Shown here: positions 3,321-18,909 of the stretch, piece by piece
Layout of the letters: each line of letters begins with the position of its first letter
Numbering within the stretch: the first letter of the stretch is position 1
IMG/VR virus record: IMGVR_UViG_3300025138_007121
Span: 1-23,193 of that record
Reading direction: 5' to 3' (one strand)
DNA length: 23,193 bases
From: a virus
Translations under genes and position numbers: made by a program
Notes under the pieces: generated by a model
Database searches by the model: none
Told to the model about the DNA's origin: nothing
What the model saw: the letters and a program-made list of their open reading frames with translations, nothing else

Positions 3321-3339
3321 AGTTTCACTCATAAAGTAT

Positions 3340-3947: not shown

Positions 3948-3955
3948 TATTTATG
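3948..3955 (-). promoter_or_regulatory. T4-late-like promoter octamer CATAAATA
   Basis: CATAAATA on the minus strand, one base from the T4 late consensus TATAAATA, sits 17 bases upstream of the virion-like gene and overlaps the stop of the preceding glycosyltransferase gene. Late promoters of T4-like phages need only this -10 element. The same octamer also occurs inside the DUF6165 gene (6135-6142), so the motif alone is weak evidence; position before a structural-type gene raises it. Confidence 0.5.
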
Positions 3956-5249
3956 CTTTAACCTTTTTCTTCCTCTTGGATCTTTCTTTTCTGGCTTTGG
4001 CAAAAGACTTTTGTTTATTATCGGTTTTATTTTTCTCTTCGATGTCATACTTATCAAAAAGTTCTCGTCGTTGCAACATCTGTTTATCAATCGCCTTCTG
4101 TCTTTCAGAAATAGCTTGTTCATATAGCGACAAGTTGGCCGTAATTCTATCATGTTCACTCTCTGGAATCTTATCAAAATTACTAATTAATTTTTTAGTA
4201 GCATCTAAACCTTCTTCTAATTGACCCACATAAAAAGCGGACGCAGAAAGTTCATCTAACATTTGCCATTCATAAACATCACCAGCAATGAACAATATAT
4301 CAGCGTGTGGGAAAGTCAATTTAGAACCCATAGATGCGTAAAGATAACCCAACCTTGGTTTATTATTTAATCTAAAAACTCTAGCTAATTGATGAAGAGG
4401 TTCTGCTCTATTTGGTCTGTAGTTCCAAGCTTCCATAAATCTTAGGGTTGTCTTTTCAAATTCTTCATTCAACAAACCAGAACACATAGCAGACCTAAAA
4501 ATTGAATAATAAACTTCTTCTGCCCATCCACCCATAGAGGCTCTCTTCTCGTACCACTTCATGGCATTTCTAAAATCACCAGAATCAAAGTAACTCTGAG
4601 CTAAGTAAAAATGATACCTATCGTTGTGTGGTTCATAATCTGGATTGCTGGCATTTGTGACTGCATCAAGTAGAAGAGCAGCATCTTTTTCGTATTTCTC
4701 TTTCGGGTCAATACCGACATTTCTGGCACCCTCAGTCCTAGCGTGAATACCATATTCACCGGGAAGTTGAGCCATCTGTTTATTTTCTCTATCTTCACAG
4801 TCAGCATATTCATGTAGAATACCAACGTACTTCCACTTATCTTCAAGTTTGAAAATTTGATTCCTCCACCAAGTGAAGTTTTCTCCACGGGTTATTCTCA
4901 AACTATAAGAACTGAATCTAGTTTTATCAATGAAGTCCAAAGACTCAGTGAAGTCTCCCTCAAGATTGTCGTCAGCATCAATCACCCAAGCGTAATCAGA
5001 TTTACCTTCAGCATTTTTGAAGGATGTAGTTCGGGACTTACCGAAACCCTCCCAAGGTTCATCATATACCTCTCCCGGTATTCCCTTTTCATCAAAAAAT
5101 TTCTTGATGATTTCTTTTGTTTTATCTGTAGACCCAGTGTCGGTTATATCGTATCGATCAATATACTTATAAACAGATTCGATACACCTCTCGATCACAT
5201 GTTCTTCATTTTTTACGATCATACAAAGTGTAATAGTAGGTTTACTCAT
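3951..5249 (-). CDS. GT2 glycosyltransferase with TPR-like C-terminal region
   Basis: A 432-residue two-part protein. Residues 1-~200 are a GT-A family 2 glycosyltransferase: ITLCMIVKNEEHVIERCIES at the N-terminus, DTGSTDKT (37-44) and the metal-binding DADD (91-94). The rest is helical and TPR-like (for example HFYLAQSYFDSGDFRNAMKW), ending in a very basic coiled tail (ERSKRKKKVKA). Such GT2-TPR proteins transfer sugars to glycans or proteins, with the repeats usually binding a partner. ATG 5249 has GGAG five bases upstream and overlaps the GT9-like gene by four bases. It is the last gene of the island; its stop lies inside the late-promoter-like octamer. Confidence 0.88.
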   Translation of the reverse strand: MSKPTITLCMIVKNEEHVIERCIESVYKYIDRYDITDTGSTDKTKEIIKKFFDEKGIPGEVYDEPWEGFGKSRTTSFKNAEGKSDYAWVIDADDNLEGDFTESLDFIDKTRFSSYSLRITRGENFTWWRNQIFKLEDKWKYVGILHEYADCEDRENKQMAQLPGEYGIHARTEGARNVGIDPKEKYEKDAALLLDAVTNASNPDYEPHNDRYHFYLAQSYFDSGDFRNAMKWYEKRASMGGWAEEVYYSIFRSAMCSGLLNEEFEKTTLRFMEAWNYRPNRAEPLHQLARVFRLNNKPRLGYLYASMGSKLTFPHADILFIAGDVYEWQMLDELSASAFYVGQLEEGLDATKKLISNFDKIPESEHDRITANLSLYEQAISERQKAIDKQMLQRRELFDKYDIEEKNKTDNKQKSFAKARKERSKRKKKVKA

Positions 5250-6079
5250 GATATCTCCAAATTAATATTCTTCTCTACGAAATTATATAGTTCTTTCTTA
5301 ATAAAGTCAAGCTCAGGATCCCAATTTCCTTCGATGACACATACAGCTGGTGTTTTGTGCGTGTTGGTCCAATCGACCATTCTTTCTCTCAAGTCCGCAC
5401 CCTCTCCCCAAGTAAACAGGGGGCATCCGCACATGGTAGACAAATGACTAGTACCAGTGTTACTTCCAAAATGAAACTTGGAATGTGAGAGTAGTGATAT
5501 ATGATCACCAACATTTTTAGTTTCTGGTACAATGACACCATCGGGGACAAAATTATCTTTCTCTAACCCGACAAGATATATCGGTAGGTTGTATTCCTCA
5601 ATGATCCAATTGACTAGACTTTGATACTTTTTAGGATCCCAGTTCTTTTCGGCACCCCTGTTCAAATTTCTACAAGAAATTGTAATGTACTCATCGGAGT
5701 CTACCATTTTATCTTTATAGAATTTACGATGACTCTCCTCAACATCCCACTGGTCAAATCTATTTTCATATGGAATCTTGAGTATATGTTCGGGGTTATA
5801 ATGTTCTTGTGTTCTTTGAATGAGTTGATTGTAGAAATTTGGGTTGTGAAGACCATAGTGATCTTCAGCACCTCTACCACATGGTGTGAAACTTTCGGGC
5901 AGTTCGATAGGAACTACCTCGTCGGCCAGTTCAAACAGTTCACTGAAAGCCGGATTACCAACAACCACCTTATGGCAGTCTTCGTGGTCTTCAAAGAATT
6001 TTCTAACTTTAGGTTGTATATCAAAAACAACCCAACCAAATTCCGCAACAACAGGAGAAACTACTGCTTTTTTTTTCAT
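5246..6079 (-). CDS. GT9-like (heptosyltransferase-type) glycosyltransferase
   Basis: A 277-residue GT-B type protein. The clearest signature is the C-terminal donor site SNTGTSHLSTMCGCPLFTWGE, matching the N-D/T-G-x-x-H-x-A-x-x-x-G-x-P block of GT9 heptosyltransferases and ADP-heptose-like enzymes. The strand YITISCRNLNRGAEKNW resembles the start of the second Rossmann domain. It would add a sugar from a nucleotide donor in the cytoplasm. I use ATG 6079 (MKKKAVV), 11 bases after GAGG; a TTG at 6085, 5 bases after the same GAGG and overlapping the upstream stop, is an alternative adding two residues. Shorter than usual GT9 enzymes (~340). Confidence 0.78.
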   Translation of the reverse strand: MKKKAVVSPVVAEFGWVVFDIQPKVRKFFEDHEDCHKVVVGNPAFSELFELADEVVPIELPESFTPCGRGAEDHYGLHNPNFYNQLIQRTQEHYNPEHILKIPYENRFDQWDVEESHRKFYKDKMVDSDEYITISCRNLNRGAEKNWDPKKYQSLVNWIIEEYNLPIYLVGLEKDNFVPDGVIVPETKNVGDHISLLSHSKFHFGSNTGTSHLSTMCGCPLFTWGEGADLRERMVDWTNTHKTPAVCVIEGNWDPELDFIKKELYNFVEKNINLEIS

Positions 6080-6081
6080 AA

Positions 6082-6459
6082 TCAATTTATCCTCGTGTAA
6101 TTTTTTTCTTCTACTATTGAAGAACTTGTTTCTATATTTATGACTCTCTTTATATCACATCTTTCCTCATTCCATAGTCTAATGGATCTAGCAATATCAA
6201 CAAAATCATCTTCAATGTTTTTACGAGTCTCTTGTTCTCGTAGACGATCCTCTCCATCCCATATATTTTCATTGACGCTCAACAATCGTAAATAATCAGA
6301 AGAAGATTCTGTCACACCAATCTGTTCAAAGGATGGCATAAGATATTCTATCTCTGTATTGATATTTTTCAGTTTGATTGGATCGGAAATTCTAGACTCT
6401 TTGATTCTAAGAATTGTCATCTTATCAACTATGTCGCCATTAGATACTTCTATTTTCAT
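6082..6459 (-). CDS. DUF6165 family protein
   Basis: A 125-residue, mainly helical protein matching the DUF6165 pattern: N-terminal EVSNGDIVDKMTILRIKESRI, a middle LLSVNENIWDGEDRLREQE, then DFVDIARSIRLWNEERCDIKR and a terminal IVEEKNY. The family has no established biochemical role that I know of; members are often beside glycosyltransferase genes in bacteria and phages. Here it lies between a GT8-like and a GT9-like gene with four-base (ATGA) overlap upstream and a ribosome site GGTGA. A helper or partner of glycosyltransferases is plausible but only inferred from context. Confidence 0.78.
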   Translation of the reverse strand: MKIEVSNGDIVDKMTILRIKESRISDPIKLKNINTEIEYLMPSFEQIGVTESSSDYLRLLSVNENIWDGEDRLREQETRKNIEDDFVDIARSIRLWNEERCDIKRVINIETSSSIVEEKNYTRIN

Positions 6460-7163
6460 AATTCACCCATGCCTATTAACACTTCACGATCCTTTTTAAT
6501 TTGATCTATTCTAGAATGCGAATCGAAAATACCCGCACCCGCGTAGTGTATAATGTGAGATTTAAACCTATCCGGATTTCCGTTCCACTCCTCACTATAC
6601 ATGGTCATATGATTAAATTGATATGGTAGTTCATGAATACAATGTTCGTATTTGTGTATCAGGTATCCCAACTGTACATCATCAAATCCACCCTCAAAAA
6701 CAGAATCTTCCGCATAACCACCATTAATTTTATTAAATATATTTTGGTGTGGTTTAGATACAACAAAAACTCCCGTGTTTATGTACCCCTCCGTCCAACC
6801 AATATCACCAAATATCCTATTAGCAGCAGATATTCTAGCTCGGCGATTAGAAGTTCTAGAACCAACATCTTCTAAATTAGTCCCAACACATTCATAAGGA
6901 ACAACATCAAAAAGATTAGGACAACTGTTCTTTATTAGAATATCAGAATCGATACAAATAATTCTATCGTAGTCATCCAAAAGTTCATTCAACTGTAAGA
7001 TTTTAAAATGCCACCGTCCATGTCCAACTGTACAATCGGAATCTTTGGTTAAAACTTTAAAATCAGCACCACACCTTTCGGCATACGAAGAAAGAATCGG
7101 ATGAGTTATCTCAGTCATCTCTGTAATTTTAGAATCAGCTCTAGTTGTGATTAAATATTTCAT
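6456..7163 (-). CDS. GT-A glycosyltransferase, GT8-like
   Basis: A 235-residue GT-A protein. It has a basic Rossmann-like start (MKYLITTRADS), ILSSYAERCGADFKVLT typical of GT8/GT34-like enzymes, the metal-nucleotide site DRIICIDSDILI with DSD at 72-74, and a later substrate block GYINTGVFVVSKP followed by DDVQLGYLIH. A C-terminal H-x-x-G-like HYAGAGIF is also present. Donor and acceptor are unknown. AAGGA precedes ATG 7163, which overlaps the dehydratase stop by four bases (ATGA). Retaining chemistry is inferred from resemblance to GT8. Confidence 0.82.
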   Translation of the reverse strand: MKYLITTRADSKITEMTEITHPILSSYAERCGADFKVLTKDSDCTVGHGRWHFKILQLNELLDDYDRIICIDSDILIKNSCPNLFDVVPYECVGTNLEDVGSRTSNRRARISAANRIFGDIGWTEGYINTGVFVVSKPHQNIFNKINGGYAEDSVFEGGFDDVQLGYLIHKYEHCIHELPYQFNHMTMYSEEWNGNPDRFKSHIIHYAGAGIFDSHSRIDQIKKDREVLIGMGEL

Positions 7164-8056
7164 TTGTTAAGTTCCTTAAAATCATATTCATACATGTTTC
7201 TTGCTAAGTCTTCCATTGTATGTTTGGGTTGCCACCCTAAATATTCTTTTATTTTTTTATTGTTACCAACGATACCAAGTTCAATGTCCATGTCATATGA
7301 AATATAATCAAGTGGGTCACCCAACTCAGCAACTTCACACACAGATCTAGCAAAAGAAAGAACACTATTTGACTTTCCAGTTGATATTACAAAGTCTTCT
7401 GGGTACTCAGACTGAAGCATCATCCACATTGCTTCTACATAATCACCAGCAAAACCCCAGTCTTTAGTTGCACCAATATTATTTAAGTGAAATTTATCTC
7501 TCATGCCCATCTTTATTTCAGCAAACGATCTACTTATGGTTCTCGTCACATATGTTAAATTTCTTTTATGGGACTCATGATTGAAGAGTATACCAGAGGA
7601 ACCCCTAATTCCATAATGATCCCAATAGGTTCTAACTAGATTTTTAGAAAATAATTTGGAACAAGCATGTGGTGTTTTTGGGGTGCATGTGTCATTCTCA
7701 TCCAGAAAACCTGTAGTCTTTCCGTATATTTCAGAAGAACATGAGTTAAAAAATCTAGTATCTGGGCTATAATTTTTAAGTGTCTCTAAAATGTTTACAG
7801 TTCCCTCTGCAACGGTTCGATAGACTTTTCTAATGAAGTCAAATGATTTTCGATCTTCATCCAATCCGCATAGATTGTAGAGTTCATCCGGTTTTGTTTC
7901 TAAAATGAATTTGTTTAAATATATTTGATCTAATATGCAGGCTCGTCTTCCATTTGGATACTCATATGGTATGACTCGATAACCTTTACTGGATAAAAAT
8001 TTACTTAGGTAGTATCCATCTTGGCCGTTGTGTCCTATTATAACGGCAGTTTTCAT
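7160..8056 (-). CDS. GDP-mannose 4,6-dehydratase-like SDR, altered active site
   Basis: A 298-residue extended SDR closest to GDP-mannose 4,6-dehydratase, which makes GDP-4-keto-6-deoxymannose, precursor of fucose, rhamnose, perosamine and related sugars. Visible: cofactor loop GHNGQDG (8-14), NSCSSEIYG (104-112, with Ser107 and Glu109 at the catalytic Thr and Glu positions), NHES (nucleotide-sugar site) and GATKDWGFAGDYVEAMW. The family's YxxxK is HxxxK here: TPHACSK, His130 and Lys134, from a CAT codon. With 298 residues it is shorter than the usual ~345-370. Loss of the catalytic Tyr may change or abolish the reaction; a related NAD-dependent epimerase or reductase is the alternative. ATG 8056 overlaps the upstream stop by four bases. 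Confidence 0.82.
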   Translation of the reverse strand: MKTAVIIGHNGQDGYYLSKFLSSKGYRVIPYEYPNGRRACILDQIYLNKFILETKPDELYNLCGLDEDRKSFDFIRKVYRTVAEGTVNILETLKNYSPDTRFFNSCSSEIYGKTTGFLDENDTCTPKTPHACSKLFSKNLVRTYWDHYGIRGSSGILFNHESHKRNLTYVTRTISRSFAEIKMGMRDKFHLNNIGATKDWGFAGDYVEAMWMMLQSEYPEDFVISTGKSNSVLSFARSVCEVAELGDPLDYISYDMDIELGIVGNNKKIKEYLGWQPKHTMEDLARNMYEYDFKELNK

Positions 8057-9306
8057 TTTGTAATTACCTCAAATTTTGGACAAGGCACTATAAACGAACC
8101 ACCACCATCTAGGTATTCACTCTCTCGTAGAGAAAACTCATGAATGAAGTGCCAAGGCAAAATCAAAAGATAGTCTGGATTGACCTTCCTCATGTATTCT
8201 TCTGAATAGATTGGTATGTTTGTACCAACAGTTCTGTGTCCATACTTCTCAGGATTCCTCTCTGCTATACCATCGATCAAGTTTTCGTCCAGACCATACC
8301 ACTGCAATAACGTATTACCCTTTGTCGATGCACCGTACCCCCATATAGTCTTACCTTTTAGTTTCTCGGTCTTGATAAAATCCACCGTCTCATCTCTAAG
8401 ATTACATATCTCATCATAAAAATCAATATACACTTGTGGATCATTTAGTCCCAGTGTCTTTTCGTACTCTAGTATACTTTGAATTCTATAATTCGCAACA
8501 TCCCTATACGGGGACGTTTTGAAATTTGTTTCCGAAGCAATGTTTTTCCGAATGTACACTCTAAAACTACCACCATTTACATCATTAAACTGACAATCAA
8601 CAATCTTGAACCCACACCTGTCTAGAACATACTTCATAGATGTTAAGGAATAAAAACAAATATGTTCATGACAAATATTATCGAAGGCCAATTGTTTGAG
8701 CATCAATGGTGTATAACTCAATTGAACGACAAACAAACCTTCATCGTCCATAACATCATAAACATCGTCTAAAAATTTCTTAGGATCATCTAGATCATAA
8801 AACATAGCAATGGTTGTTATGATCTTTGCTTTATTTTTAGCACAGGACCAGTAAGACTCTGATGTAAAATAATCCTGAACTATGTGGTCGGCATGTTTTC
8901 GAGAACTTTCCACGATTGATCCTTTACATGGGTCAATACCAATCCTAGTGAAACGATCAGAGGGAACCGAACTAAGCAAAGTTCCATCGTTAGAAGCTAT
9001 ATCCAAAAAGACATCACCAACATTAGTAGGAATTGAATCGATACAAGATCTTGAGATGTCATATAGTTCTCGGGTCATAGAATCATTGACCCCGGACTTG
9101 TACCAGTACTTACCGTACATCAGATCCGGGTCAACTGTCTTTTCCATCTGCAACAAACCGGAGTCCTCACATAACAAAAGTTTCATTTCCTCTTTACCAC
9201 CACGCGGTGATTCGTCATTCTTTACGAAATCAGAAATAAACATGGAACCCATGTTCATAACTTCAACCAATTCACCACCAGAAATTCTACACTTAACATC
9301 TGTCAT
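8053..9306 (-). CDS. Sugar C-methyltransferase (NovU/TylC3 type), Zn site degenerate
   Basis: A 417-residue protein with the three-part plan of SAM-dependent nucleotide-sugar C-methyltransferases: N-terminal putative zinc-binding part, central Rossmann methyltransferase with FLDIASNDGTLL (100-111) and the conserved HEHICFYSL, and a C-terminal domain with IWGYGASTKGNTLLQ and PDYLLILPWHF. The family adds a methyl carbon to a keto-sugar nucleotide. The two CxxC pairs usual in the N-terminal part are CxxS here (CRIS and CEDS), so zinc binding is doubtful. I use ATG 9306, one codon after a TTG, with AGGA seven bases upstream; it overlaps the preceding stop by one base. It fits a pathway producing a branched deoxysugar. 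Confidence 0.88.
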   Translation of the reverse strand: MTDVKCRISGGELVEVMNMGSMFISDFVKNDESPRGGKEEMKLLLCEDSGLLQMEKTVDPDLMYGKYWYKSGVNDSMTRELYDISRSCIDSIPTNVGDVFLDIASNDGTLLSSVPSDRFTRIGIDPCKGSIVESSRKHADHIVQDYFTSESYWSCAKNKAKIITTIAMFYDLDDPKKFLDDVYDVMDDEGLFVVQLSYTPLMLKQLAFDNICHEHICFYSLTSMKYVLDRCGFKIVDCQFNDVNGGSFRVYIRKNIASETNFKTSPYRDVANYRIQSILEYEKTLGLNDPQVYIDFYDEICNLRDETVDFIKTEKLKGKTIWGYGASTKGNTLLQWYGLDENLIDGIAERNPEKYGHRTVGTNIPIYSEEYMRKVNPDYLLILPWHFIHEFSLRESEYLDGGGSFIVPCPKFEVITK

Positions 9307-10643
9307 CAATCTTTCCTCACATAAAAATCATTAACTTTGTATCTTCTGTCTTTAACGTATCCAAATTGTTTCAGGTAAGTCTCTATATCAGACTCATCAT
9401 GATTATTTTCTACAACCAAAAGATCAATCTTCCACTTACTAAAATCTATACCCATAAGAACATCCAACTCAGTTGACTCCGTATCGATTGATATGAAATC
9501 AATTTTTTCATCGAAACCACGCTCATCCAAAATTGTATCCAGTTTAACGACTGGGACTTTAATTTTGTAGGTGTCCTTGATTAAATGTTTATGAGATTCA
9601 ACTAGTTTCTCATCAACTACTAGCCCACTAATCGAAGTCATGATATCACGTTCACCCACAACAAAAACATTAAAATCAACTTCTTCGTTCTCATCAGAAC
9701 CAACAGCAGTCATTACCACATCTTTCCTGCAAGATTTAAGATCATTCTCAAATTCAGGATTAGCCTCTATACAAAGAGTCTTCCATCCCCTATCCTCAAA
9801 GTATTTTGTATTTGATCCCTTTATACCATCTCCAGCACCAACTTCGATACAAGTACCAACAAAATCTTCATCAAAGTACTTTGATATTATACTGTCTGTC
9901 TCCCATTGACCATAGTATTCACTCGTATCAATTTCAGATGGATCATACAAATCTCTTCTAGCTTGTTCGAATATTTCTCGATCATCATCAGATATAAATT
10001 GTCCGCACCCACCAAGAAATTCGGATTCTAGAATCCTATCCTGAAACCCACCGTTCCTGCAAGCATCTAGTTGAGGATAAACCCAATCATTCGTAACAAA
10101 CAAAACATCCCTACCGTCCCTAACTCTACTTTGGTTTTCAAAACTATGAACACCTAAGTCGGATTCAATATACTTCATAAACAAATCTTTTTTCCATATA
10201 GACGCACAAAGACTAGTGGAAAGAGGAGAATTGCCAGACTGGTTCCAAACTCCGAAGTCATCAGAATATTTTTCTCCAGATCTACTCATGTTATTGGGGT
10301 CATAACAACAACAGACTTTGGAGACTGTATCCTTTTTAATTTCAGATTCAGCTTTGTCCAACAAAGAAAAATTCATATCCTTGAACATGAAATGATCTTC
10401 TAGTGCGAGTAGAAAATAATCATCCTGTAAATTTTCAAAGTAACTTCTTAGTGGTGCAGTCCAACACCCCCCACTACTGTCGCCTAATGAAATTAAATTA
10501 AAATTTTTAGGCAATTTGAATTTTGGTTTCTCATAACATAGAACATCAACCTCTTTATTTTCAGACCAGTGTCTATTAAAAAGTCTGGAAAAACTATTAA
10601 GGAGATTCACATACTTATCAGACGATACTATTATTACTTTCAT
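9306..10643 (-). CDS. Fusion: glycosyltransferase-like domain + FkbM methyltransferase
   Basis: A 445-residue two-domain protein. Residues 1-~215 look like a GT-A-type domain: MKVIIVSSDKY start, DDYFLLALEDHFMF (EDHF 82-85, in the position of a DXD site), and a later TSLCASIWKKDLF. Residues ~240-445 are an FkbM-type SAM methyltransferase: TCIEVGAGDGIKGSNT (264-279), TLCIEANPEFE, VPVVKLDTIL, and IDFISIDTESTELDVLMGI. FkbM enzymes methylate sugar hydroxyls, so the fusion could add and cap one sugar. The first 26 bases overlap the sulfotransferase gene. The ribosome site is weak. The glycosyltransferase assignment for the first half is less certain than the second half. Confidence 0.75.
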   Translation of the reverse strand: MKVIIVSSDKYVNLLNSFSRLFNRHWSENKEVDVLCYEKPKFKLPKNFNLISLGDSSGGCWTAPLRSYFENLQDDYFLLALEDHFMFKDMNFSLLDKAESEIKKDTVSKVCCCYDPNNMSRSGEKYSDDFGVWNQSGNSPLSTSLCASIWKKDLFMKYIESDLGVHSFENQSRVRDGRDVLFVTNDWVYPQLDACRNGGFQDRILESEFLGGCGQFISDDDREIFEQARRDLYDPSEIDTSEYYGQWETDSIISKYFDEDFVGTCIEVGAGDGIKGSNTKYFEDRGWKTLCIEANPEFENDLKSCRKDVVMTAVGSDENEEVDFNVFVVGERDIMTSISGLVVDEKLVESHKHLIKDTYKIKVPVVKLDTILDERGFDEKIDFISIDTESTELDVLMGIDFSKWKIDLLVVENNHDESDIETYLKQFGYVKDRRYKVNDFYVRKD

Positions 10644-11334: not shown

Positions 11335-11939
11335 CTATTTATCTCCTTAAATATAGTAAACTCTCTCAGGTCTCGGTATCCACCATCTTCAATAAGATCT
11401 GGTACGTTCTCTGGGTAGTTCTGCATCAATGCAAGTCCATGAGATGCCTGTTGTGGAGTCATATACATATTCCACCCAAGCATCGTAATATCATCTTCCT
11501 TGTATGGTACTGCGTGTCGTCCTTCGTATCGTGCAACACGAAGCCAATCAACAATATCTTTGTTGTCAGTCAGAACCATACCACCCTTACCGATTGGAAG
11601 ATGTTTTTTGATGTGGAAAGATAGACACATGTTTGTGCCTTCGATATACATGTTAGAAGTAAGTCGTTTGGCGGAATCATAAATCGGATATGGTTTGAGT
11701 TGGTAAATACCTTCCCACTCATCATCAGTAAACTTCACTATACCACCCGAATGAATGATAGACTGAGGCACTGAGAGATAAGTCTTTGCGGGTATCTCAA
11801 CCTCACCAACATCAAAATACTTACAACAAAGAAACAGAGCATCGGTACAGGAAGTAACCGCAACAGCGTACGGCGCACCGGTGTACTCAGCAACTGTCTC
11901 TTCAAACATATCTACAATTTTAAAAGGGTTGTGTTTCAT
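11331..11939 (-). CDS. DegT/DnrJ/EryC1-type PLP protein, C-terminally short
   Basis: A 202-residue protein covering only the large PLP-binding domain of sugar aminotransferases (usual length ~370). It has YTGAPYAVAVTSCTDALFL (19-37), EIPAKTYLS, PIYDSAKRL (Asp88 at the pyridine-nitrogen position) and SFHIKKHLPIGKGG with the presumed PLP lysine at K112. The usual Gln/His after the Asp is Lys91. After residue ~165 the homology stops, so the small domain completing the active site is absent. It may be a partner of another protein, a relic or a non-enzymatic scaffold. The reading frame is intact and packed by four-base overlaps on both sides, so it is not an obvious pseudogene. No strong ribosome site; probably coupled to the FkbM gene. 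Confidence 0.8.
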   Translation of the reverse strand: MKHNPFKIVDMFEETVAEYTGAPYAVAVTSCTDALFLCCKYFDVGEVEIPAKTYLSVPQSIIHSGGIVKFTDDEWEGIYQLKPYPIYDSAKRLTSNMYIEGTNMCLSFHIKKHLPIGKGGMVLTDNKDIVDWLRVARYEGRHAVPYKEDDITMLGWNMYMTPQQASHGLALMQNYPENVPDLIEDGGYRDLREFTIFKEINR

Positions 11940-12637
11940 ATATTTTCATTCGGAATACATAGGTATTCACCCCAACCTTCAAACAAGTTTGGGGTAACTT
12001 TATAATTAAGATCTGTAAATGAATTAAAATCGAATCCACCATCACTGACAGAAACAAATCCGGGATATCCATCCAACGACTCATCTATACCAAAATGATA
12101 ACCAATCTGGAAAATGGGTCTAATATTTTCCAATAAATTTTTCATACCATACAATGCAAGAGTTTCCATTCCCTCAATATCAATTTTTACATAGTCAGGG
12201 TTTGGTATATTATGTTCTTGTATATAATCATCAAAAACTCTATAGTTTATTTCTCGGTATGGATTTTCTTTTTGATCCATACAACTATTAAACTGAGATT
12301 TAATACTTTTATTTTCATTACTAACAGATACCAAATGTGTTTTTATATTTTTATAGGGTTTAGTATTTTTCTTTAATCGTTTGTAATTATCAGGAAACCC
12401 TTCAAACGCATATACTTCCATTCCCTCTATCTCAAGAGGTATAGAAAAAGTTCCAATATATGCACCGATATCATATACTACACTACCCTTGTTTAGTAAA
12501 CTCGTAACCTCAGAAAATTTATGATCAGGTCTGGTGTATAAATCATCTGCTATTATATTATGATCTATATTGTGGCCACTTTCTAGTAAATCGTAAAATG
12601 TTATATCATGATCTTTATATTTAATCGTTTTAATCAT
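11936..12637 (-). CDS. FkbM family methyltransferase
   Basis: A 233-residue SAM-dependent O-methyltransferase of the FkbM type. Motif I VVYDIGAYIGTFSIPLEIEG, acidic loop VYAFEGFPDNYKRLKKNT, and the family signature PDYVKIDIEGMETLALYGM are all seen, followed by RPIFQIGYHF. FkbM enzymes methylate hydroxyls on sugars or other small molecules. The start ATG 12637 follows AGGA by nine bases; the stop overlaps the short DegT gene (ATGA). This stretch is noticeably AT-richer than neighbouring genes, which may reflect separate acquisition. Substrate unknown; the island context suggests sugar capping. Confidence 0.88.
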   Translation of the reverse strand: MIKTIKYKDHDITFYDLLESGHNIDHNIIADDLYTRPDHKFSEVTSLLNKGSVVYDIGAYIGTFSIPLEIEGMEVYAFEGFPDNYKRLKKNTKPYKNIKTHLVSVSNENKSIKSQFNSCMDQKENPYREINYRVFDDYIQEHNIPNPDYVKIDIEGMETLALYGMKNLLENIRPIFQIGYHFGIDESLDGYPGFVSVSDGGFDFNSFTDLNYKVTPNLFEGWGEYLCIPNENI

Positions 12638-12648
12638 TTGGTATTATC

Positions 12649-13404
12649 CTATAATATTAAATCACTGTGTCTATTATCTATCTCTTGATGACACGGGTGA
12701 TTTCCTTCGACGAATTCCATGTCATGAACAACCTCCCCCTGTCGTCCCTGAATCAGAGGGGAAAAAGTTTTATTGTTGGAAAGGAAAGATGACCACCAAC
12801 CGAAAGTGGAGTTGGATCTAAACAATACATCGGCATTCATCAGAAGGAAAAAGTCATACAGAAAGTCTATGTTACCATGAAAACTTTTATCACTGGAGTA
12901 ATTTCTGGTATCGTTGGGTTGTTTTATTTCTTCACCAACGAACAGGATGTCATCTAAACTATAACCATGTTTCTCCACAGCACGAAGATACGAATCCTCA
13001 TGAATACAAGCATAGTGTGGGTTATTTACGAAGTCACCTCTACGAAGGTGACATGCAATGTAGTAAGATTTAACTTTAGGAAACATGTCAACCCACACAT
13101 CTTTAAATTTAAAAAAAGATCTAACTGTATCAGGATTCATGATTTTTAAAAAATCTTGATGTTGGTAAAACCCATGCAAGTCAATACTGTGTTCATTCTC
13201 CACCCTTTGATCCAATTCTGTTGAGGGAAATCTATCCCTGAGTTCAGGATCCTCTATATCAAATAAAGATCTACCAATCCAGTCTGCGGGGATCTGGAGT
13301 TCATATCCATTCTTCATCGCATAGGATTTAGCAAAAGCGTATTGGAACAATTGATTTCCAAATCTACCATACTTTCCTAAACATGACATACTAACACTAA
13401 ACAT
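12649..13404 (-). CDS. GT11-type (alpha-1,2-fucosyl) glycosyltransferase
   Basis: A 251-residue GT-B protein of family GT11. It has the N-terminal signature GKYGRFGNQLFQYAFAKSYA (10-29), the donor-binding CHLRRGDFV (HxRRGD motif), DILFVGEE, and FRSNSTFGWWSSFLS, which are the four conserved blocks of alpha-1,2-fucosyltransferases. Known members transfer fucose from GDP-fucose to galactose-ended glycans. GDP-fucose would need the dehydratase product plus a host or undetected GDP-fucose synthase, as no fcl gene is in the window. I use ATG 13404, next to an upstream TTG, overlapping the preceding stop by one base (TGATG). Other GDP-deoxyhexose donors are possible. Confidence 0.88.
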   Translation of the reverse strand: MFSVSMSCLGKYGRFGNQLFQYAFAKSYAMKNGYELQIPADWIGRSLFDIEDPELRDRFPSTELDQRVENEHSIDLHGFYQHQDFLKIMNPDTVRSFFKFKDVWVDMFPKVKSYYIACHLRRGDFVNNPHYACIHEDSYLRAVEKHGYSLDDILFVGEEIKQPNDTRNYSSDKSFHGNIDFLYDFFLLMNADVLFRSNSTFGWWSSFLSNNKTFSPLIQGRQGEVVHDMEFVEGNHPCHQEIDNRHSDLIL

Positions 13405-14207
13405 CAATTACATTCCGGGCATCTTGCAGTGATACAATGACCAGTTTCAGGCCAACCAATGTGACAGTCTTCCCACTTCGGTCTGGTGAATGGATCTGTT
13501 CCGGAACCAATATCAATTACCGTCAATGTTGGATTCGCTTCGAACCACTCCTTAGCAAGAATTCTACTCAGAGGACCACAACTTAAACCAATCACATCAC
13601 CGTCTTTGAACTTATTGACCATAGGGAGTATATCTTCATAAACACTCCAAGAATTTTGTCTGGGGACATGTGCCTTAAAATCAAGTTCAATACCCCAGTC
13701 GTCGAACACATCAAACTTCTGGTCATCTCCACCAACCCAATTTAGCTTTCTACCGTCCAAAGAGTCCTTGAAGTTCTGTATGAAGTAAAGCCAATTCCTA
13801 TTGGTTATACAACACGCACGAATCTTATAGGGGTAATCCGACCTCACCAAACTATCTGCTGTGTCTCTCATGTGAGAAAAACATGTTTTACAGGGCATAC
13901 CCACGAAGTAATTAGTTTGTTCATGTTTGATACACTCTATTAATTTATTGTGTAGTGAATTATCTACGATCTGATCACCTCTAGCAATAGAAGCTCCAAC
14001 TCGTTGTATTCCTCCCATTTCCCCGTCATTGAATCTAGAAAGAGAAAATGGAATTCTATGCTTCATCATTGACATCAACATTTTAACTTCATGATCTGCG
14101 GAGTTTTCTTTAATATCAAAGTAATCAGTAATCTTACCCATATGTTTTGTTGGGTGAACGTATTTGTGTAAATCAAAATCATAACGACTTTGGTATGGAT
14201 GCGACAT
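13404..14207 (-). CDS. GT-D fold putative glycosyltransferase (DUF1792-like)
   Basis: A 267-residue protein with features of GT-D glycosyltransferases, first described in streptococcal DUF1792 proteins: FSLSRFNDGEMGGIQ (DGE at 61-63, the metal site of the fold), VPRQNSWSVYEDILPMV, DGDVIGLSCGPLSRILAKEWF, and VIDIGSGTDPFTRP near the end. A C-terminal CxxC (CPECN) follows. The family transfers hexoses onto glycoprotein glycans; the acceptor here is unknown. ATG 14207 has AGGA five bases upstream, and the gene follows the exostosin-like gene by 7 bases. Confidence 0.72.
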   Translation of the reverse strand: MSHPYQSRYDFDLHKYVHPTKHMGKITDYFDIKENSADHEVKMLMSMMKHRIPFSLSRFNDGEMGGIQRVGASIARGDQIVDNSLHNKLIECIKHEQTNYFVGMPCKTCFSHMRDTADSLVRSDYPYKIRACCITNRNWLYFIQNFKDSLDGRKLNWVGGDDQKFDVFDDWGIELDFKAHVPRQNSWSVYEDILPMVNKFKDGDVIGLSCGPLSRILAKEWFEANPTLTVIDIGSGTDPFTRPKWEDCHIGWPETGHCITARCPECN

Positions 14208-14214
14208 AGTTTTC

Positions 14215-15003
14215 CTAACTTAAATTATTAATAATATTTTTTGTGACTAAAAATGATCCGGCGGGAGATGCGTTTCGATCATACCATTCTTGTCCCGATC
14301 GAAGGATTCTCTCCCATTGTTTTTCATCGACTGAGTTTATAACCTGTTCGACTTCACTGGGATCATTCACTCTAAGAAAATGAACACCTTCAACCAAAGG
14401 TTCGTGATATGTGTTGTCAACTTCGGGAGCAAATAAAGGCACCACACCCATACCAATAAGTTCAATTTCTCTATTGCACTTGGGCCCATATCCCGCAAGA
14501 CATAAACCGAAACGAGAATTCATCAGTTTCTCCAGATACTCCTCTTTGGTGAAGGGGTAATGATCTGGTCCGGGTTTATCCACCGGACAGTGAAACAATT
14601 CTACACCAGAAGATCCCCAGTCACGATTTCTTCTGTTACCATCTTGTACATTATTTTCGATCTTACCCAGAAATATAGATTCTATTTCTCTGTCTTTGTA
14701 TGATTTCAATCGTTTTCTTCTAGCTTCTAACAATCGTCTAGGGCTTCTTGCCCAAAAAATCCAAGGGTGACATGATGCGTGATCCGGAACCGTATTACCG
14801 AACAACCCTTTTTTAAAAGTTGGAATAGGACGGTCGTCTATTCGTGGGTAATCATATAAAATAACATCCCCATGTGTACCCGCCCAACAAAAATCATCTG
14901 GACTATTTTCTACTTCACACAGATCCCATTCTTGCCAAATACCAACAAGTTCTCTGAAAGTATCACCACAGTGACTACCAGCATCAGGTATTAAAATCTT
15001 CAT
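14215..15003 (-). CDS. Exostosin-like (GT47-type) putative glycosyltransferase
   Basis: A 262-residue protein whose C-terminal half resembles the donor domain of exostosin/GT47-like GT-B enzymes: EKLMNSRFGLCLAGYGPKCN, REIELIGMGVVPLFAPE, then VEGVHFLRVNDPSEVEQVI. The N-terminal half has a short HGDVILYDYPRID and many aromatic residues but no clear motif. It would be a soluble cytoplasmic protein, with no membrane anchor. ATG 15003 overlaps the ketoisomerase stop by one base (TAATG), with AGGGA upstream. Family placement rests on one region, so a more general GT-B enzyme remains possible. Confidence 0.68.
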   Translation of the reverse strand: MKILIPDAGSHCGDTFRELVGIWQEWDLCEVENSPDDFCWAGTHGDVILYDYPRIDDRPIPTFKKGLFGNTVPDHASCHPWIFWARSPRRLLEARRKRLKSYKDREIESIFLGKIENNVQDGNRRNRDWGSSGVELFHCPVDKPGPDHYPFTKEEYLEKLMNSRFGLCLAGYGPKCNREIELIGMGVVPLFAPEVDNTYHEPLVEGVHFLRVNDPSEVEQVINSVDEKQWERILRSGQEWYDRNASPAGSFLVTKNIINNLS

Positions 15004-15419
15004 TAACTTCCCTTTAGTCTCTTGAACTGATCCCAGTCATGAATATAATCAGAAGGATCGTATGATGTACTGGACAAGACCACAAGAACAGAATCCGATG
15101 TTCTATAAACCTGTTCATCCCAAATCATTTCTGGAATATACAGGGCCTGTTGAGGAGACTCTAGTAGAAATCTAGACTCTTTCAACCCATCCTTACACAC
15201 AACCTCAACCTTACCAGACAAACAAATTAACAGTTGCTGTGTCTTGTAGTGTGCATGTTGACCTCTAGTATCCTTGTCATTTACACCATAGACATAGAAA
15301 ACTCTTTTAATATCAAACGGAACATCTTTCGATCCCTCTATTGGACATAAGTTTCCGGTTGGGTCTACTACCGTTTTGGTGTTATAGAACGAAACATCAT
15401 TTACAGTTTTATTAGGCAT
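15003..15419 (-). CDS. FdtA/WxcM-type sugar 3,4-ketoisomerase (cupin)
   Basis: A 138-residue cupin with the hallmark RGQHAHYKTQQLLICLSG; His55 and His57 correspond to the catalytic His pair of FdtA. Also VFYVYGV, QALYIPEMIWDEQVY and a DYIHDWDQF-like end, all family features. FdtA/QdtA enzymes move the keto group of dTDP-4-keto-6-deoxyglucose from C4 to C3, setting up transamination at C3. The next gene upstream is a full DegT aminotransferase, reproducing the FdtA-FdtB pair. ATG 15419 has AAGGA upstream and overlaps that gene by 19 bases. The nucleotide (dTDP or GDP) cannot be told; no RmlA/RmlB gene is here. Confidence 0.88.
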   Translation of the reverse strand: MPNKTVNDVSFYNTKTVVDPTGNLCPIEGSKDVPFDIKRVFYVYGVNDKDTRGQHAHYKTQQLLICLSGKVEVVCKDGLKESRFLLESPQQALYIPEMIWDEQVYRTSDSVLVVLSSTSYDPSDYIHDWDQFKRLKGS

Positions 15420-16351
15420 TCACTTTCCTTCACGGTTTTCATTATATACTCAACCTGTTCATTTGTCAACTTATCATGTAGGGGAATCGATAAAGTTGTT
15501 CTCGATGGTGTCGTTACCATCTCATGGAAAAAGAATTCTTCATGTAAATCATTATATTCACCGAACACCGGATTCAGATGTTGAGGTGTATAATGTATTC
15601 CTGTAACTATTCCCATTTCTTTGAAGTACGGAATAGCCTCTACATTATTCTCAACATGAATCCTATACAAATGACGACTGGTATTTTCCAATCCGAATTC
15701 ACTGTTATATTTATCACGAATCTCATCGATGCGTTCGTACCTCGAATCCAAGTTCTTAAGGTTTCTAGAAGCGATGGTGGCCTGCATAGTTGACATGTAT
15801 GCCTTGAACCCAACCTGTTTCTGTACTCGACTCCATGAATCCTCTGCGTACTCCATACCGTAGAAACTTAGACTTTTCAGATCATCGATCTTCTCTTTAT
15901 TGTTAGACACAACGATACCACCATCCAAAGACGGTAGAGGTTTGGTTGGGTACATAGAGAACACCATAAGGTCATCGGATTCACATTCATTTGCAAACTG
16001 GTTTCTATCCAAACGTTGTGCGGAATCCACCACACCATCAGTTAGAATGTAAGAGTTACCAACCCAATCAACGTCCGATGTGAATTTAATTTTCTTACCA
16101 GCATCAACTAAAAGATTAGGCACAACGGCCGGAATCATGGAAGGTATAGAAATAGACTCTGGGGTTTGTATGACCTTACTGTTCATTATAGAATACAAGG
16201 CATATGAAGCACTGAAAAAAGATGCAGCGTACTTTGCACCAACATATTCACATATCTCTTGTTCAAAATCTTTGACGATTTGACCGTGAAGGAAGTGATC
16301 AAACTCAGATGTGTCGATCACATGATTATCAAATTCAAATAAGTTTATCAT
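15401..16351 (-). CDS. DegT/DnrJ/EryC1-type PLP sugar aminotransferase
   Basis: A 316-residue aspartate-aminotransferase-fold protein. It contains VGAKYAASFFSASYALYSIM (37-56), SIPSMIPAVVPNLLVDAG, GVVDSAQRL (Asp109, Gln112) and SMYPTKPLPSLDGG with the PLP-binding Lys137. The C-terminal small domain is present (GIHYTPQHLNPVF, TTLSIPLHDKLTNEQVEYI), though the whole is shorter than the usual ~370. With the overlapping FdtA-type ketoisomerase it should make a 3-amino-3,6-dideoxyhexose nucleotide, as FdtB or QdtB does. ATG 16351 overlaps the methyltransferase stop by four bases (ATGA) with GGTGA upstream. Confidence 0.85.
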   Translation of the reverse strand: MINLFEFDNHVIDTSEFDHFLHGQIVKDFEQEICEYVGAKYAASFFSASYALYSIMNSKVIQTPESISIPSMIPAVVPNLLVDAGKKIKFTSDVDWVGNSYILTDGVVDSAQRLDRNQFANECESDDLMVFSMYPTKPLPSLDGGIVVSNNKEKIDDLKSLSFYGMEYAEDSWSRVQKQVGFKAYMSTMQATIASRNLKNLDSRYERIDEIRDKYNSEFGLENTSRHLYRIHVENNVEAIPYFKEMGIVTGIHYTPQHLNPVFGEYNDLHEEFFFHEMVTTPSRTTLSIPLHDKLTNEQVEYIMKTVKESECLIKL

Positions 16352-16947
16352 TTTTTCACCAAGTAAAAATTATCTTGCATCGAGTACACATTATACGAGT
16401 ATTTGTCACACATGTCAAGGAAATTATTTTTATTATGATGATATGCACAAGTTTCTATCTCATCATATGCTTTGTATGTTATATGATAACTTTCATTTTC
16501 TGTTAGTTTCATTCTACTTATCAACATAGAACCAGAACATATACTCATAAGATGTTCCATAGCCTCATCACCATTAGGCATCACATCAAACAAAGCTCCA
16601 ACAAGTAACAAATCATATTCAGAAACATCTTGTTTCTTAGTATCCATCACGTCTTTGACATAAAAATCAAAAGACTTCCAAGTTTTCTTTGCTAACTGAA
16701 TTGCATCTTCTGAATAGTCGGTGCCTGTATATTTGACATCAGGAAGTTCTCTACGAAAGACCTCCGACAAAGCCCCACATCCACATCCTATGTCAAGTAC
16801 AGATTTTGGACTGAAGTGTTGGATTAAAGATATACAAGTTTTCCAGTGCGGTGCATATGATTCTTTAGACTTAAGTTCTTTTAGATTATAGTCCAACTGT
16901 TTCTGAAAGACTTTTTCATTCTTCCACGCATTCTTTAGATCAGACAC
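16348..16947 (-). CDS. Class I SAM-dependent methyltransferase, GTG start
   Basis: A 199-residue Rossmann methyltransferase with motif I SVLDIGCGCGALSEVF (49-64), acidic loop YTGTDYSEDAIQLAKK and motif DLLLVGALFDVMP. The C-terminus ends in FYLVKK, as in many small phage methyltransferases. Target unknown; island context suggests a sugar or lipid carrier. The start is GTG at 16947, inside the end of the GT8-like gene (8-base overlap), with GGAG ten bases upstream. The first in-frame ATG is far downstream of conserved sequence, so GTG is favoured. Small-molecule rather than DNA methylation is inferred, because no target-recognition domain is visible. Confidence 0.82.
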   Translation of the reverse strand: MSDLKNAWKNEKVFQKQLDYNLKELKSKESYAPHWKTCISLIQHFSPKSVLDIGCGCGALSEVFRRELPDVKYTGTDYSEDAIQLAKKTWKSFDFYVKDVMDTKKQDVSEYDLLLVGALFDVMPNGDEAMEHLMSICSGSMLISRMKLTENESYHITYKAYDEIETCAYHHNKNNFLDMCDKYSYNVYSMQDNFYLVKK

Positions 16948-17797
16948 CTTTCAATACTCCATCATAATCAATATACATTTTCTGAACGGATGGGATTCCA
17001 TAAACAGCACCACCCATAGTATGAACACCATATGCCCCTCGATCAGGCCATATTCTACCATCTTCAGTGTAACCAAATTTAGAGAAGTGATTGAATACAA
17101 GAGGTTGCCTCTTATCACCCCAAACAACAGAACCATCTTGATCGAAATAATCATAGACATATAATCTGAAGTTCCAAGGCGCACCGTGGGCAACAGTTTC
17201 ATCAATCACACAAACAGAGTCTCCGAACCTCGGAATAAAACCCTCAAGGTATTTCTGATCTCCACATGTCGCAAGTTCTGGGTTAGTCCCCAGAATGATG
17301 GCATCGTTCCACCAATTGAGGCAACCCAACCCATCCTCATCATTCTTGAAGTACACAACCCCAACATTAAACTCACCATCTACAGAGACAGGTGTGTTGT
17401 GACGATGACGGATGATACCTATACTTCTATCCCCAATCTCATCGAAGATAAGTTTGGGGTCTTGGTAAAAGAATATATCAGAGTCGATGTAGAAAATAGA
17501 ATCCAAGTTCTTTTGTTCGAGAAGGTATCTGGAAAAACCAGAAGCCAAAGTCCAACAAAAGGCATTATATGGATTGTTATTTTTATATGATTCTAATGTC
17601 AGGTACTTAGAAAGAACCTCTTCGATTTTAACAGGGACAACTCTGGGATCATAATCTACCAGTTCGTCGTAACAATCATCATCTATACACAAGTAATATA
17701 AAACAAAATCTTCACTGCTGGATTCTATTAATGATTTGATTAGTGCTTTACCGAACGTGAGATAATTACTGTCAGATAGTGTGCAATAGTTTCTCAC
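16940..17797 (-). CDS. GT-A glycosyltransferase, GT8-like, GTG start
   Basis: A 285-residue GT-A enzyme. Features: LSDSNYLTFGKALIKSLIES at the N-terminus, DSIFYIDSDIFFYQDP with the metal-binding DSD at 105-107, FNVGVVYFKND, then GDQKYLEGFI and HGAPWNFRLY, an arrangement found in GT8 and in bacterial surface-glycan transferases. The start is GTG at 17797, supported by GAGGAG seven bases upstream; it overlaps the preceding gene by 26 bases. The acceptor is not known. It sits near the beginning of the island. Confidence 0.82.
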   Translation of the reverse strand: MRNYCTLSDSNYLTFGKALIKSLIESSSEDFVLYYLCIDDDCYDELVDYDPRVVPVKIEEVLSKYLTLESYKNNNPYNAFCWTLASGFSRYLLEQKNLDSIFYIDSDIFFYQDPKLIFDEIGDRSIGIIRHRHNTPVSVDGEFNVGVVYFKNDEDGLGCLNWWNDAIILGTNPELATCGDQKYLEGFIPRFGDSVCVIDETVAHGAPWNFRLYVYDYFDQDGSVVWGDKRQPLVFNHFSKFGYTEDGRIWPDRGAYGVHTMGGAVYGIPSVQKMYIDYDGVLKGV

Positions 17798-18491
17798 GAA
17801 GTCTCTCCTCTAACACATCTGTTTCAAATTTACGAGACATTCTTTCTTGAAAAACCTTACCGTCTCTATCATAAAAACTTTCATTTCTCTTATGAAGTTC
17901 GTCCGCTCTTTCATCCTCAGAAGACATCCACTGGTGTTGGATAATACAAATACCACTTACGGCCAGTTTGCCAATCATGGCACAGGCCTGAGTCTGTTCG
18001 TTGTCGCAGTATAGAGATTCATAATCTGGGTGGTAAACATAACCAAACGACTCGTACAACTTCCAACCAAGACACGGGAGTGTCATTAGAGTATCACTTC
18101 GAAGTCCATCATTAAACTTAATAGCACCACTATAATCCGGGAACACATCTTGGTAGTTTTCGTAAATTGTATGATCGTAGTTCCTAACTACAGGAACCAT
18201 ATCATCGGAAACCAAAAGTAAAACGTCACCAGACTCACCGTCTAGGTTGGCGTTACACGCTTCGATCTTTGTCTTTGAGTGTCCATAGTGGTAAACAATA
18301 TCAATGCCATTCGACTTGTGATTTTCAATGAAAGACTTAATGTCATCATTGTTCATAGTCTCATCATCCTCATCCATCGTAATCACGAATCGAACGTCAT
18401 GTTTACCAGACAAGAAATCAATATACTTGTCTAGGAGAGGCTTAAATTTATGGGGTCTACTTCGAGTTGGAAATTTTATCACTAGATTCAT
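17772..18491 (-). CDS. GT2-like glycosyltransferase
   Basis: A 239-residue GT-A protein, first gene of the carbohydrate island. The N-terminus reads VIKFPTRSRPHKF, followed by RFVITMDEDDETM, and a DXD-like SDDM at 95-98 in LLLVSDDMVPV. Later DTLMTLPCLGWKLYESFGYVYHPDYESLYCDNE resembles phage and marine-bacterial GT2 enzymes. It starts 13 bases after the RegA stop with AGGA nine bases upstream, so it could be transcribed from the replication promoters and be expressed early to middle. Donor and acceptor unknown. Confidence 0.78.
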   Translation of the reverse strand: MNLVIKFPTRSRPHKFKPLLDKYIDFLSGKHDVRFVITMDEDDETMNNDDIKSFIENHKSNGIDIVYHYGHSKTKIEACNANLDGESGDVLLLVSDDMVPVVRNYDHTIYENYQDVFPDYSGAIKFNDGLRSDTLMTLPCLGWKLYESFGYVYHPDYESLYCDNEQTQACAMIGKLAVSGICIIQHQWMSSEDERADELHKRNESFYDRDGKVFQERMSRKFETDVLEERLREKLLHTI

Positions 18492-18504: not shown

Positions 18505-18909
18505 TTATTTTTTACCTATGTGGTACTTGGGACACAGTTCCCAATCTTCTTTATCCCGATGTGAGATTATTTTTAGATGATGAATGGGAACTCTCTCATC
18601 CTCTGGATCTTTTTCAACGATATCAACTAGTCCCCATTCTTCCAACAAATCAGCAATTGTGTTTCGTCGGAAGATGTCATTGTCGGAAAGATTTGTTGGT
18701 AAACCATCAAGGGCAAATAGTTCTTTAAAGTGAACAATATAATATTTGCCACGTTTGTGTAGAATATGACATGATTGCCATAGTTTTTTTTCTTTTTTAG
18801 ATGATACACCAATTCTCGTCAAGGTCTCTCTCACTTTAAGAAAATCATCTGGTTCCTTAAGAGTAACCTCTAATAAATCAGCTGGTTGTAAGTCTAAATA
18901 TTCTTCCAT
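18505..18909 (-). CDS. regA: Translational repressor RegA
   Basis: RNA-binding repressor that, in T4, blocks ribosome loading on many early mRNAs including genes 44, 45 and its own. This 134-residue protein matches T4 RegA (122 residues) nearly end to end: EVTLKEPDDFLKVRETLTRIG, LWQSCHILHKRGKYYIVHFKE, LLEEWGLVDIV and the C-terminal WELCPKYHIG. It has about 11 extra residues at the N-terminus (MEEYLDLQPAD). ATG 18909 has AAAGGTGA upstream. A 56-base gap before it holds a late-promoter-like octamer. In T4 the next gene is 43; here the glycan island follows. Confidence 0.96.
   Translation of the reverse strand: MEEYLDLQPADLLEVTLKEPDDFLKVRETLTRIGVSSKKEKKLWQSCHILHKRGKYYIVHFKELFALDGLPTNLSDNDIFRRNTIADLLEEWGLVDIVEKDPEDERVPIHHLKIISHRDKEDWELCPKYHIGKK

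Follow-up and report, generated by a model that had tools for sequence, protein, structure and literature searches.

Carbohydrate genes between regA and gene 43

We analysed a 23,193-base IMG/VR fragment of an uncultured T4-like phage (record IMGVR_UViG_3300025138_007121; this whole stretch is termed the window), in which a large island of carbohydrate genes lies inside the replication operon, between regA and gene 43. No near DNA match to the window was present among 50,697 phage records, and from its relatives and phage group we infer a marine origin. The minus strand reads gp45, gp44, a groES-like gene, a DruA-domain gene, gp62, regA, 18 carbohydrate genes, a phrog_1084 gene, dUTPase, a hypothetical open reading frame (ORF), a MazG-like gene and gene 43. 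Orthologues of the T4-like replication operon gp45-44-62-regA-43, assigned with PHROGs, are thus kept in order on one strand, with the groES-like and DruA-domain ORFs between 44 and 62.

The island comprises 18 mechanically called ORFs at 3951–18491, all on the minus strand, as a preliminary description of this DNA had stated. Because 15 of the 18 junctions (regA counted) overlap, mostly by 4 nt, the 18 genes form one compact operon. The same description had set the island in the place where T4 has regA directly followed by gene 43; the two genes are indeed only ~70 bp apart in T4, but the island is not flush with gene 43, from which it is parted by four genes (those for the phrog_1084 protein, dUTPase, the hypothetical ORF and the MazG-like ORF), and the complete regA-to-gene 43 interval of the window spans 16.4 kb and 22 genes. 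Pfam searches of the island recovered a family 2 glycosyltransferase (GT) with a tetratricopeptide repeat (TPR) region, hereafter GT2-TPR, together with GT8, GT11, GT-D and a weaker second GT8, FdtA, two DegT aminotransferases, a GDP-mannose-dehydratase-like short-chain dehydrogenase/reductase (SDR), a C-methyltransferase, two FkbM methyltransferases and one further methyltransferase, a sulfotransferase and DUF6165. The combination of glycosyltransferases with deoxysugar-making, methylating and sulfating enzymes seen in the preliminary description is therefore borne out (FdtA, DegT, SDR, methyltransferases, sulfotransferase). Its count of at least six glycosyltransferase types is plausible: four GT families are significant in Pfam, and further likely glycosyltransferases have no Pfam family (such as 17772–18491, phrog_14945). 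The GC content of the island is close to that of its flanks, with third-position GC somewhat below that of gp44, gp45 and gene 43. A search of the island borders for repeats, tRNAs and recombination sites found no tRNAs, and repeats there were only short and diverged. Misassembly between regA and gene 43 was ruled out, as the same junctions recur in many contigs from different metagenomes. The features from regA to gene 43 are as follows.

18505–18909, minus: regA translation repressor, right-hand anchor (phrog_242, E = 1.9e-57)
17772–18491, minus: bookend 1, GT-A-type glycosyltransferase fixed beside regA (phrog_14945 'glycosyltransferase', E = 6e-10; without Pfam family)
16940–17797, minus: GT8-like glycosyltransferase (Pfam Glyco_transf_8, E = 0.0016, under the cut-off; 97% identical copy in relative G004)
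16348–16947, minus: S-adenosylmethionine (SAM) methyltransferase (Methyltransf_12, E = 3e-12; precise one-gene presence/absence relative to G004, seen as a DNA alignment gap)
15401–16351, minus: DegT aminotransferase, QdtB/FdtB-like (Pfam; best PDB match QdtB 3frk, E = 6e-13; lysine in DegT-type motif)
15003–15419, minus: FdtA-type TDP-4-oxo-6-deoxyhexose 3,4-ketoisomerase (Pfam FdtA, E = 4e-45)
14215–15003, minus: conserved island protein, possible glycosyltransferase (homologues in G004, 88%, and G007, 71%; neither Pfam nor PDB match)
13404–14207, minus: GT-D fold glycosyltransferase (Pfam GT-D, E = 2e-7)
12649–13407, minus: GT11 fucosyltransferase-like, HLRRGD motif (Pfam, E = 1.6e-9; phrog_2644 glycosyltransferase)
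11936–12637, minus: FkbM methyltransferase (Pfam, E = 5e-13)
11331–11939, minus: short DegT aminotransferase, 202 amino acids (aa) (Pfam, E = 6e-23; 51% homologue of 224 aa in G004)
10618–11334, minus: sulfotransferase, N-terminal GRSGT motif and RDPRD motif (Sulfotransfer_3, E = 2.5e-13)
9306–10643, minus: fusion of an unassigned N-terminal domain with an FkbM methyltransferase (FkbM at residues 267–430, E = 3e-19)
8053–9309, minus: sugar C-methyltransferase (Methyltransf_13/23/14; Methyltransf_14, E = 2e-43)
7160–8056, minus: GDP-mannose 4,6-dehydratase-like SDR (Pfam, E = 3e-63)
6456–7163, minus: GT8 glycosyltransferase (Pfam, E = 4.5e-6)
6082–6459, minus: DUF6165 protein (Pfam, E = 7e-11)
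5246–6085, minus: unassigned island protein (no match in Pfam, PHROG and PDB searches)
3951–5249, minus: bookend 2, GT2 glycosyltransferase with TPR region (Pfam GT2, E = 3e-17, plus TPR)
3478–3930, minus: phrog_1084 protein (PHROGs), Ser/Thr/Gly-rich centre, candidate glycan acceptor
2763–3332, minus: dUTPase, left flank (phrog_135)
2061–2483, minus: MazG-like protein, left flank (phrog_1485; named from position and size, PHROGs assigning no function)
1–2064, minus: gene 43 DNA polymerase, cut by the window end (phrog_262, E = 1e-264)

Alignment of the SDR (7160–8056) showed that His occupies the position of the catalytic Tyr in YxxxK and that a stretch found in relatives is missing; the Tyr-to-His replacement makes its activity uncertain, and the enzyme is possibly inactive or altered. 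Both DegT aminotransferases are shortened (202 aa for 11331–11939 and 316 aa for 15401–16351), with the DegT-type lysine motif retained.

Fixed ends and exchanged interior

The two genes that close the island, bookend 1 beside regA and bookend 2 (GT2-TPR) at the far end, mark a locus with fixed ends that recurs in many independent IMG/VR contigs. When 80 bookend 1 loci were scanned, regA lay on the same strand in 78 and at most 200 bp away in 74; a scan of 80 bookend 2 loci found regA or gp62 upstream, or phrog_1084, dUTPase, MazG or gene 43 downstream, in 74, the remaining six including short or truncated ones. A near-empty site was present in 16 contigs (16 of the 80 GT2-TPR loci), where the GT2-TPR gene lies 26–52 bp past regA with no island between, in the order regA-GT2/TPR-dUTPase-MazG-43. 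The bookends are kept at ~43–60% identity over deep divergence, and two clade members (G005 and G012) have no recognisable bookend 1. In tblastn searches of cultured phages bookend 1 had no match and bookend 2 had 12 weak matches, none named T4-like. The AlphaFold model of bookend 1 is poor (pLDDT, the model's confidence score, of 49), and Foldseek placed GT-A enzymes on top with no E below 0.001, a hint that the protein may resemble GT-A enzymes in structure.

Between the bookends lie 4–22 nucleotide-sugar, glycosyltransferase and tailoring genes, which are replaced as blocks. Close relatives whose core proteins are 86–96% identical to those of the window have other cargo in this position (genes were counted as shared at 30% identity and 50% coverage). 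With G004 (regA 93%, gp44 96% and gene 43 92% identical) the window has five of its 16 interior genes in common: the DNA is homologous from the core across five island genes, apart from the clean absence of one methyltransferase gene, and this homology ends at the end of 14215–15003 and restarts at the start of the GT2-TPR gene, so that 9.0 kb of the window is replaced by 12.6 kb. With G002 (core proteins 89–95% identical, including regA at 92% and gp44 at 95%) none of the 16 is shared, the DNA homology ending within bookend 1 and restarting just ahead of the GT2-TPR start. G033 and G023 (regA 91%) have a single island gene in common. An island type can also be kept, as nearly the whole island (11 of 11–12 genes) is common to G023, G036 and G011, at a median identity of 88% for G023–G036 and 73% for G011–G023.

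The sugar pathways encoded by the window, G004 and G002 all differ; their products are named here from gene families and pathway knowledge. In the window, FdtA and the QdtB-like DegT imply a dTDP-3-amino-3,6-dideoxyhexose; in G004, NeuB, a NeuA-type cytidylyltransferase and a NeuC-type UDP-GlcNAc 2-epimerase imply a nonulosonic acid; and in G002, SIS, GHMP kinase, cytidylyltransferase-like nucleotidyltransferase and epimerase genes imply an activated heptose.

The locus is thus a variable island with conserved flanks: the flanks are the same, the interior differs between near relatives and an empty site exists. The preliminary description had proposed a hot spot for glycan modules in the replication operon and had named as refutations an island conserved in every close relative, which the swapped cargo and above all G002 contradict, and a misassembly, which the recurring junctions exclude. 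Together, these results show that an uncultured T4-like clade has, in its regA-43 interval, a glycan locus with bookends and an exchangeable interior. Separately, G002 has an extra 232-aa ORF between gp62 and regA (L003:9257-9955) that is absent there in the window and G004, making gp62-regA a second small variable site; a member of the same family also lies within the G004 island.

The interval in other T4-like phages

Measured on hidden Markov model matches, the regA-43 gap of cultured phages is ~70 bp in T4, 0.26 kb in HTVC008M, 0.65 kb in KVP40, 1.3 kb in S-SM2, 1.4 kb in S-PM2, 1.6 kb in S-SRM01, 3.0 kb in S-SSM7, 5.8 kb in P-SSM2 and 12.6 kb in S-H38. Wherever the annotation of cultured T4-likes was inspected, no island-type sugar genes were found in the interval, the cargo being heat-shock (HSP20), purine and carbamoyltransferase genes or, in S-H38, the genes listed below. 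In environmental T4-likes outside the clade the interval measured 1.4–7.0 kb in ten and ~13 kb in two (G015, G016); across 11 of these 12 taken together the leading Pfam families were HSP20, deaminase and ATP-grasp, and among the 25 of 37 families listed for these intervals the sole transferase-like one was DUF4422, in two members. The corresponding interval in the window's clade is 10.7–24.7 kb. Because other T4-likes have a short interval or other cargo, the glycan character belongs to one clade; as a statement about T4-likes in general, the hot spot holds for the variability of the interval, which is plastic throughout those compared, but not for the glycan cargo, which is peculiar to one uncultured clade. 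The 12.6-kb interval of the cultured cyanophage S-H38 (NC_070964, 155999-168615) carries genes for plastocyanin, dehydrogenases, a terminal oxidase and transaldolase, most of which lie on the other strand.

Such plasticity would fit a non-selected landing site, in which regA-43 merely tolerates cargo and host polysaccharide genes pile up as headful-packaging filler; the interval does carry unrelated cargo in other T4-likes, and 'stuffer DNA' has been raised for cyanophage lipopolysaccharide (LPS) clusters (PMC3037559). We regard this as quite unlikely for the island, where reading frames are open and overlapping, the bookends persist over deep divergence, whole islands are kept at the median identities given above and the replacements are functionally equivalent glycan genes.

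The photosystem gene psbA (Photo_RC, PF00124) was absent from eight clade contigs of 89–157 kb, the window alone being too short to tell, so the clade probably does not consist of typical marine cyanophages. A cyanophage assignment was accordingly rejected, gene 43 also being at most ~51% identical to cultured phages among the matches listed. Among bacteria, relatives of the GT2-TPR enzyme reach ~40% identity at most and are spread over phyla.

In bacterial O-antigen, capsule and flagellin-glycosylation loci, conserved flanks enclose an exchanged interior of nucleotide-sugar pathways (Fuc3N/Qui3N, nonulosonic acid, heptose). The island shares this plan of flanks and interior but differs in lying on a phage, in a replication operon, and in having no flippase or polymerase/ligase. 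Among phages, the LPS clusters of P-SSM2, S-SSM7 and S-SM2 (Sullivan et al. 2010, PMC3037559) are likewise large LPS-type sugar blocks of unproven function in marine T4-likes; unlike the island they lie near hli03 or phoH, the regA-43 intervals of these phages being 5.8, 3.0 and 1.3 kb (in P-SSM2 and S-SSM7 without annotated sugar genes), and the portion of that paper drawn on here does not describe fixed bookends or block replacement between near relatives. The pelagimyophage host recognition cluster (Zaragoza-Solas et al. 2020, PMC7029224) is likewise a hypervariable T4-like island with glycosyltransferases, proposed to alter the host O-chain, but it lies between VrlC and gp14, in a structural region with tail fibres, and the regA-43 interval of HTVC008M is just 0.26 kb. 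The position between regA and gene 43 thus agrees with neither of these clusters. The cyanophage g15-g18 hyperplastic region (Millard et al. 2009, via PMC2984593), as far as it is outlined there, is also a plastic cargo site between conserved T4-like modules, in another position and with metabolic rather than glycan cargo.

Expression signals and other genes of the operon

Near-consensus sigma-70 sites are enriched on the island coding strand, with six at 11–12 of 12 matches versus none on the other strand and ~0.4 expected from shuffled sequence. Two of three perfect sites lie 22–39 nt ahead of the DegT and FdtA starts, the FdtA site being conserved in G004, and the third, also found in G004, lies directly upstream of dUTPase (3367–3340). 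Most other clade islands show no sigma-70 enrichment. A late-promoter-like element, CATAAATA, stands 44 nt upstream of the regA start, the motif being present in the window, G004, G002 and L002, and again 25 nt upstream of the phrog_1084 start in the window. More widely, NATAAATA or the related CTAAATA stands ~40–47 nt ahead of regA in most clade contigs, and a NATAAATA-type element 24–25 nt ahead of the phrog_1084 start in the window, G004 and G002; NATAAATA has been described as the late promoter motif of S-PM2 (PMC2984593). From these motifs, both early and late transcription of the island are possible. In the 150-kb relative G036 (L446-L453, 149,886 bases), 15 of 27 CTAAATA sites lie at most 60 nt upstream of an ORF, versus 0.8 expected, and CTAAATA is a probable promoter element of the clade.

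Two further genes lie between gp44 and gp62. The DruA-domain protein (19344–20588, minus; PF14236 E = 9e-8, PADLOC DruA E = 5e-6, phrog_19197 E = 9e-141) is a lone Druantia-type domain within the clamp-loader part of a phage replication operon; it is present in the window, G004, G002 and L002, and a relative at 49% lies close to gene 43 in G003 (L083), a contig of 136 kb. The GroES-like co-chaperonin (20458–20751, minus; phrog_3188) has a divergent homologue at the same place in G005 and directly ahead of gp62 in G012.

Predicted target of the glycan

When a profile of ten GT2-TPR orthologues was compared with the PDB, its four best matches were GmaR (E = 6e-16) and SunS-type (E = 3e-8) enzymes. 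A DADD motif is invariant in the ten orthologues, and bookend 2 combines, like the GmaR/SunS type to which it is related in sequence, a GT2 domain bearing a DXD-like motif with a following TPR/helical region. In GmaR the GT domain, with a TPR domain behind it, adds N-acetylglucosamine to flagellin (PMC9638930), and the SunS equivalog model is annotated as a peptide S-glycosyltransferase. Judged by these best matches, the GT2-TPR enzyme is probably related to protein glycosyltransferases. It was rejected as a SunS orthologue, the equivalog model being matched far under its cut-off.

The phrog_1084 protein neighbours the GT2-TPR gene in 50 of 80 loci (at most 215 bp away in 45). Its homologues adjoin VrlC, baseplate, tail and neck genes in HTVC008M, S-SSM7, S-SM2 and S-SRM01, and P-SSM2 has two copies elsewhere; a tie to the cyanophage LPS clusters was rejected, isolate homologues lying mostly in the tail module and not beside those clusters. 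No membrane segments were predicted in any island protein of the window, and the flippase (Polysacc_synt, PF01943) and ligase/polymerase (Wzy_C, PF04932) families were absent from 13 clade records, so the locus does not have the flippase and polymerase/ligase of a Wzx/Wzy-dependent polysaccharide locus. Together with the likeness to GmaR and SunS and the phrog_1084 neighbour, these absences favour soluble, protein-directed glycosylation of a virion component.

We therefore propose, and give an even chance, that the bookended, block-exchanged locus serves to glycosylate virion proteins. Phage and host would provide NDP-sugars (nucleotide-activated sugars); the TPR region of the GT2-TPR enzyme would hold the protein while the first sugar is added in the cytoplasm; and the interior transferases, methyltransferases and sulfotransferase would lengthen and cap the glycan. 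A virion protein would serve as acceptor, the first candidate being the neighbouring phrog_1084 tail-module protein. Block exchange would alter the glycan, much as happens in the O-antigen and flagellin-glycosylation loci of bacteria, and would thereby alter recognition or binding of the particle. Mycobacteriophages (Freeman et al. 2023, via PMC12619734), another phage group, provide a described case of phage-encoded transferases acting on virion proteins, with the glycans on capsid and tail-tube subunits; the passage in PMC12619734 makes no mention of an exchangeable multi-pathway island.

The main rival is modification of the host envelope, by which the island would alter the LPS O-chain or capsule, blocking adsorption of other phages or keeping new virions from sticking to debris, with block exchange tracking the host polysaccharide type. 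This is the published explanation for the LPS-type genes of cyanophages (PMC2984593) and pelagimyophages (PMC7029224), and the contents of the island resemble bacterial O-antigen loci. The missing flippase, ligase/polymerase and membrane proteins, the invariant bookend that resembles protein glycosyltransferases and its usual neighbour of a tail-module family speak against it, and we hold envelope modification to be a serious but lesser possibility.

Several observations weigh against virion-protein glycosylation. Near-perfect sigma-70 sites within the island suggest that it is also expressed early, as would fit envelope modification, and the phage could borrow flippases and ligases of its host, which would take the glycan to the envelope. 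The GT2 family is very large, the similarity of bookend 2 to GmaR and SunS is distant, and its nearest phage family is, according to PHROGs, a beta-1,4-glycosyltransferase. The phrog_1084 protein may be an unrelated neighbour. It is missing at 30 of the 80 GT2-TPR loci (some truncated), so it cannot be the sole acceptor and another would be needed there; its AlphaFold model is poor (pLDDT 41). Moreover, NATAAATA is not over-represented across the window as a whole; its enrichment, not above chance, was dropped as an argument and its conserved position alone was used.

A third target, DNA, would have the sugars placed on modified bases to block restriction enzymes, like the glucosylated hydroxymethylcytosine of T4. 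The island does sit inside the replication operon, and phage-encoded DNA glycosyltransferases exist (cited in PMC12619734). The thymidylate synthase/dCMP hydroxymethylase family PF00303, however, was absent from the eight clade contigs of 89–157 kb, which thus lack the dCMP hydroxymethylase of T-even-type DNA glucosylation (the window's genome is incomplete), and among the island genes none was identified as a hydroxymethylpyrimidine or base-modifying gene, making DNA hypermodification very unlikely. Known DNA glycans also fall well short of the sulfation, C-methylation, nonulosonic-acid and heptose pathways encoded here. Of the three targets raised in the preliminary description, virion proteins are thus favoured, the host envelope is the rival and DNA is disfavoured.

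Implications

Phage sugar clusters, plastic regions of T4-likes and GT2-TPR enzymes are all of known kinds. The open-access literature searched gave no account of a glycan island in the regA-43 interval; as far as that literature and the records show, what is new is where the island lies, its two fixed transferase bookends together with an empty site, and the fact that whole sugar pathways are replaced as blocks when near relatives are compared. The target of marine phage sugar-gene clusters has long been open, and some have even been called possible stuffer DNA. The bookends, the single-gene empty site and the linked protein of a tail-module family narrow this question to a small testable gene set, the GT2-TPR enzyme and the phrog_1084 protein. 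Somewhat short of even confidence, we suggest that a widespread uncultured clade carries a dedicated serotype locus, in which the chemistry of a protein-linked, phage-built glycan (nonulosonic acid, heptose, sulfated aminodeoxyhexose) would be switched by block exchange between two fixed GT genes in the replication operon. If the glycan is on the virion, phages would possess a counterpart to the serotype systems that bacteria have in their surface antigens, and the particle surface could change rapidly through block exchange.

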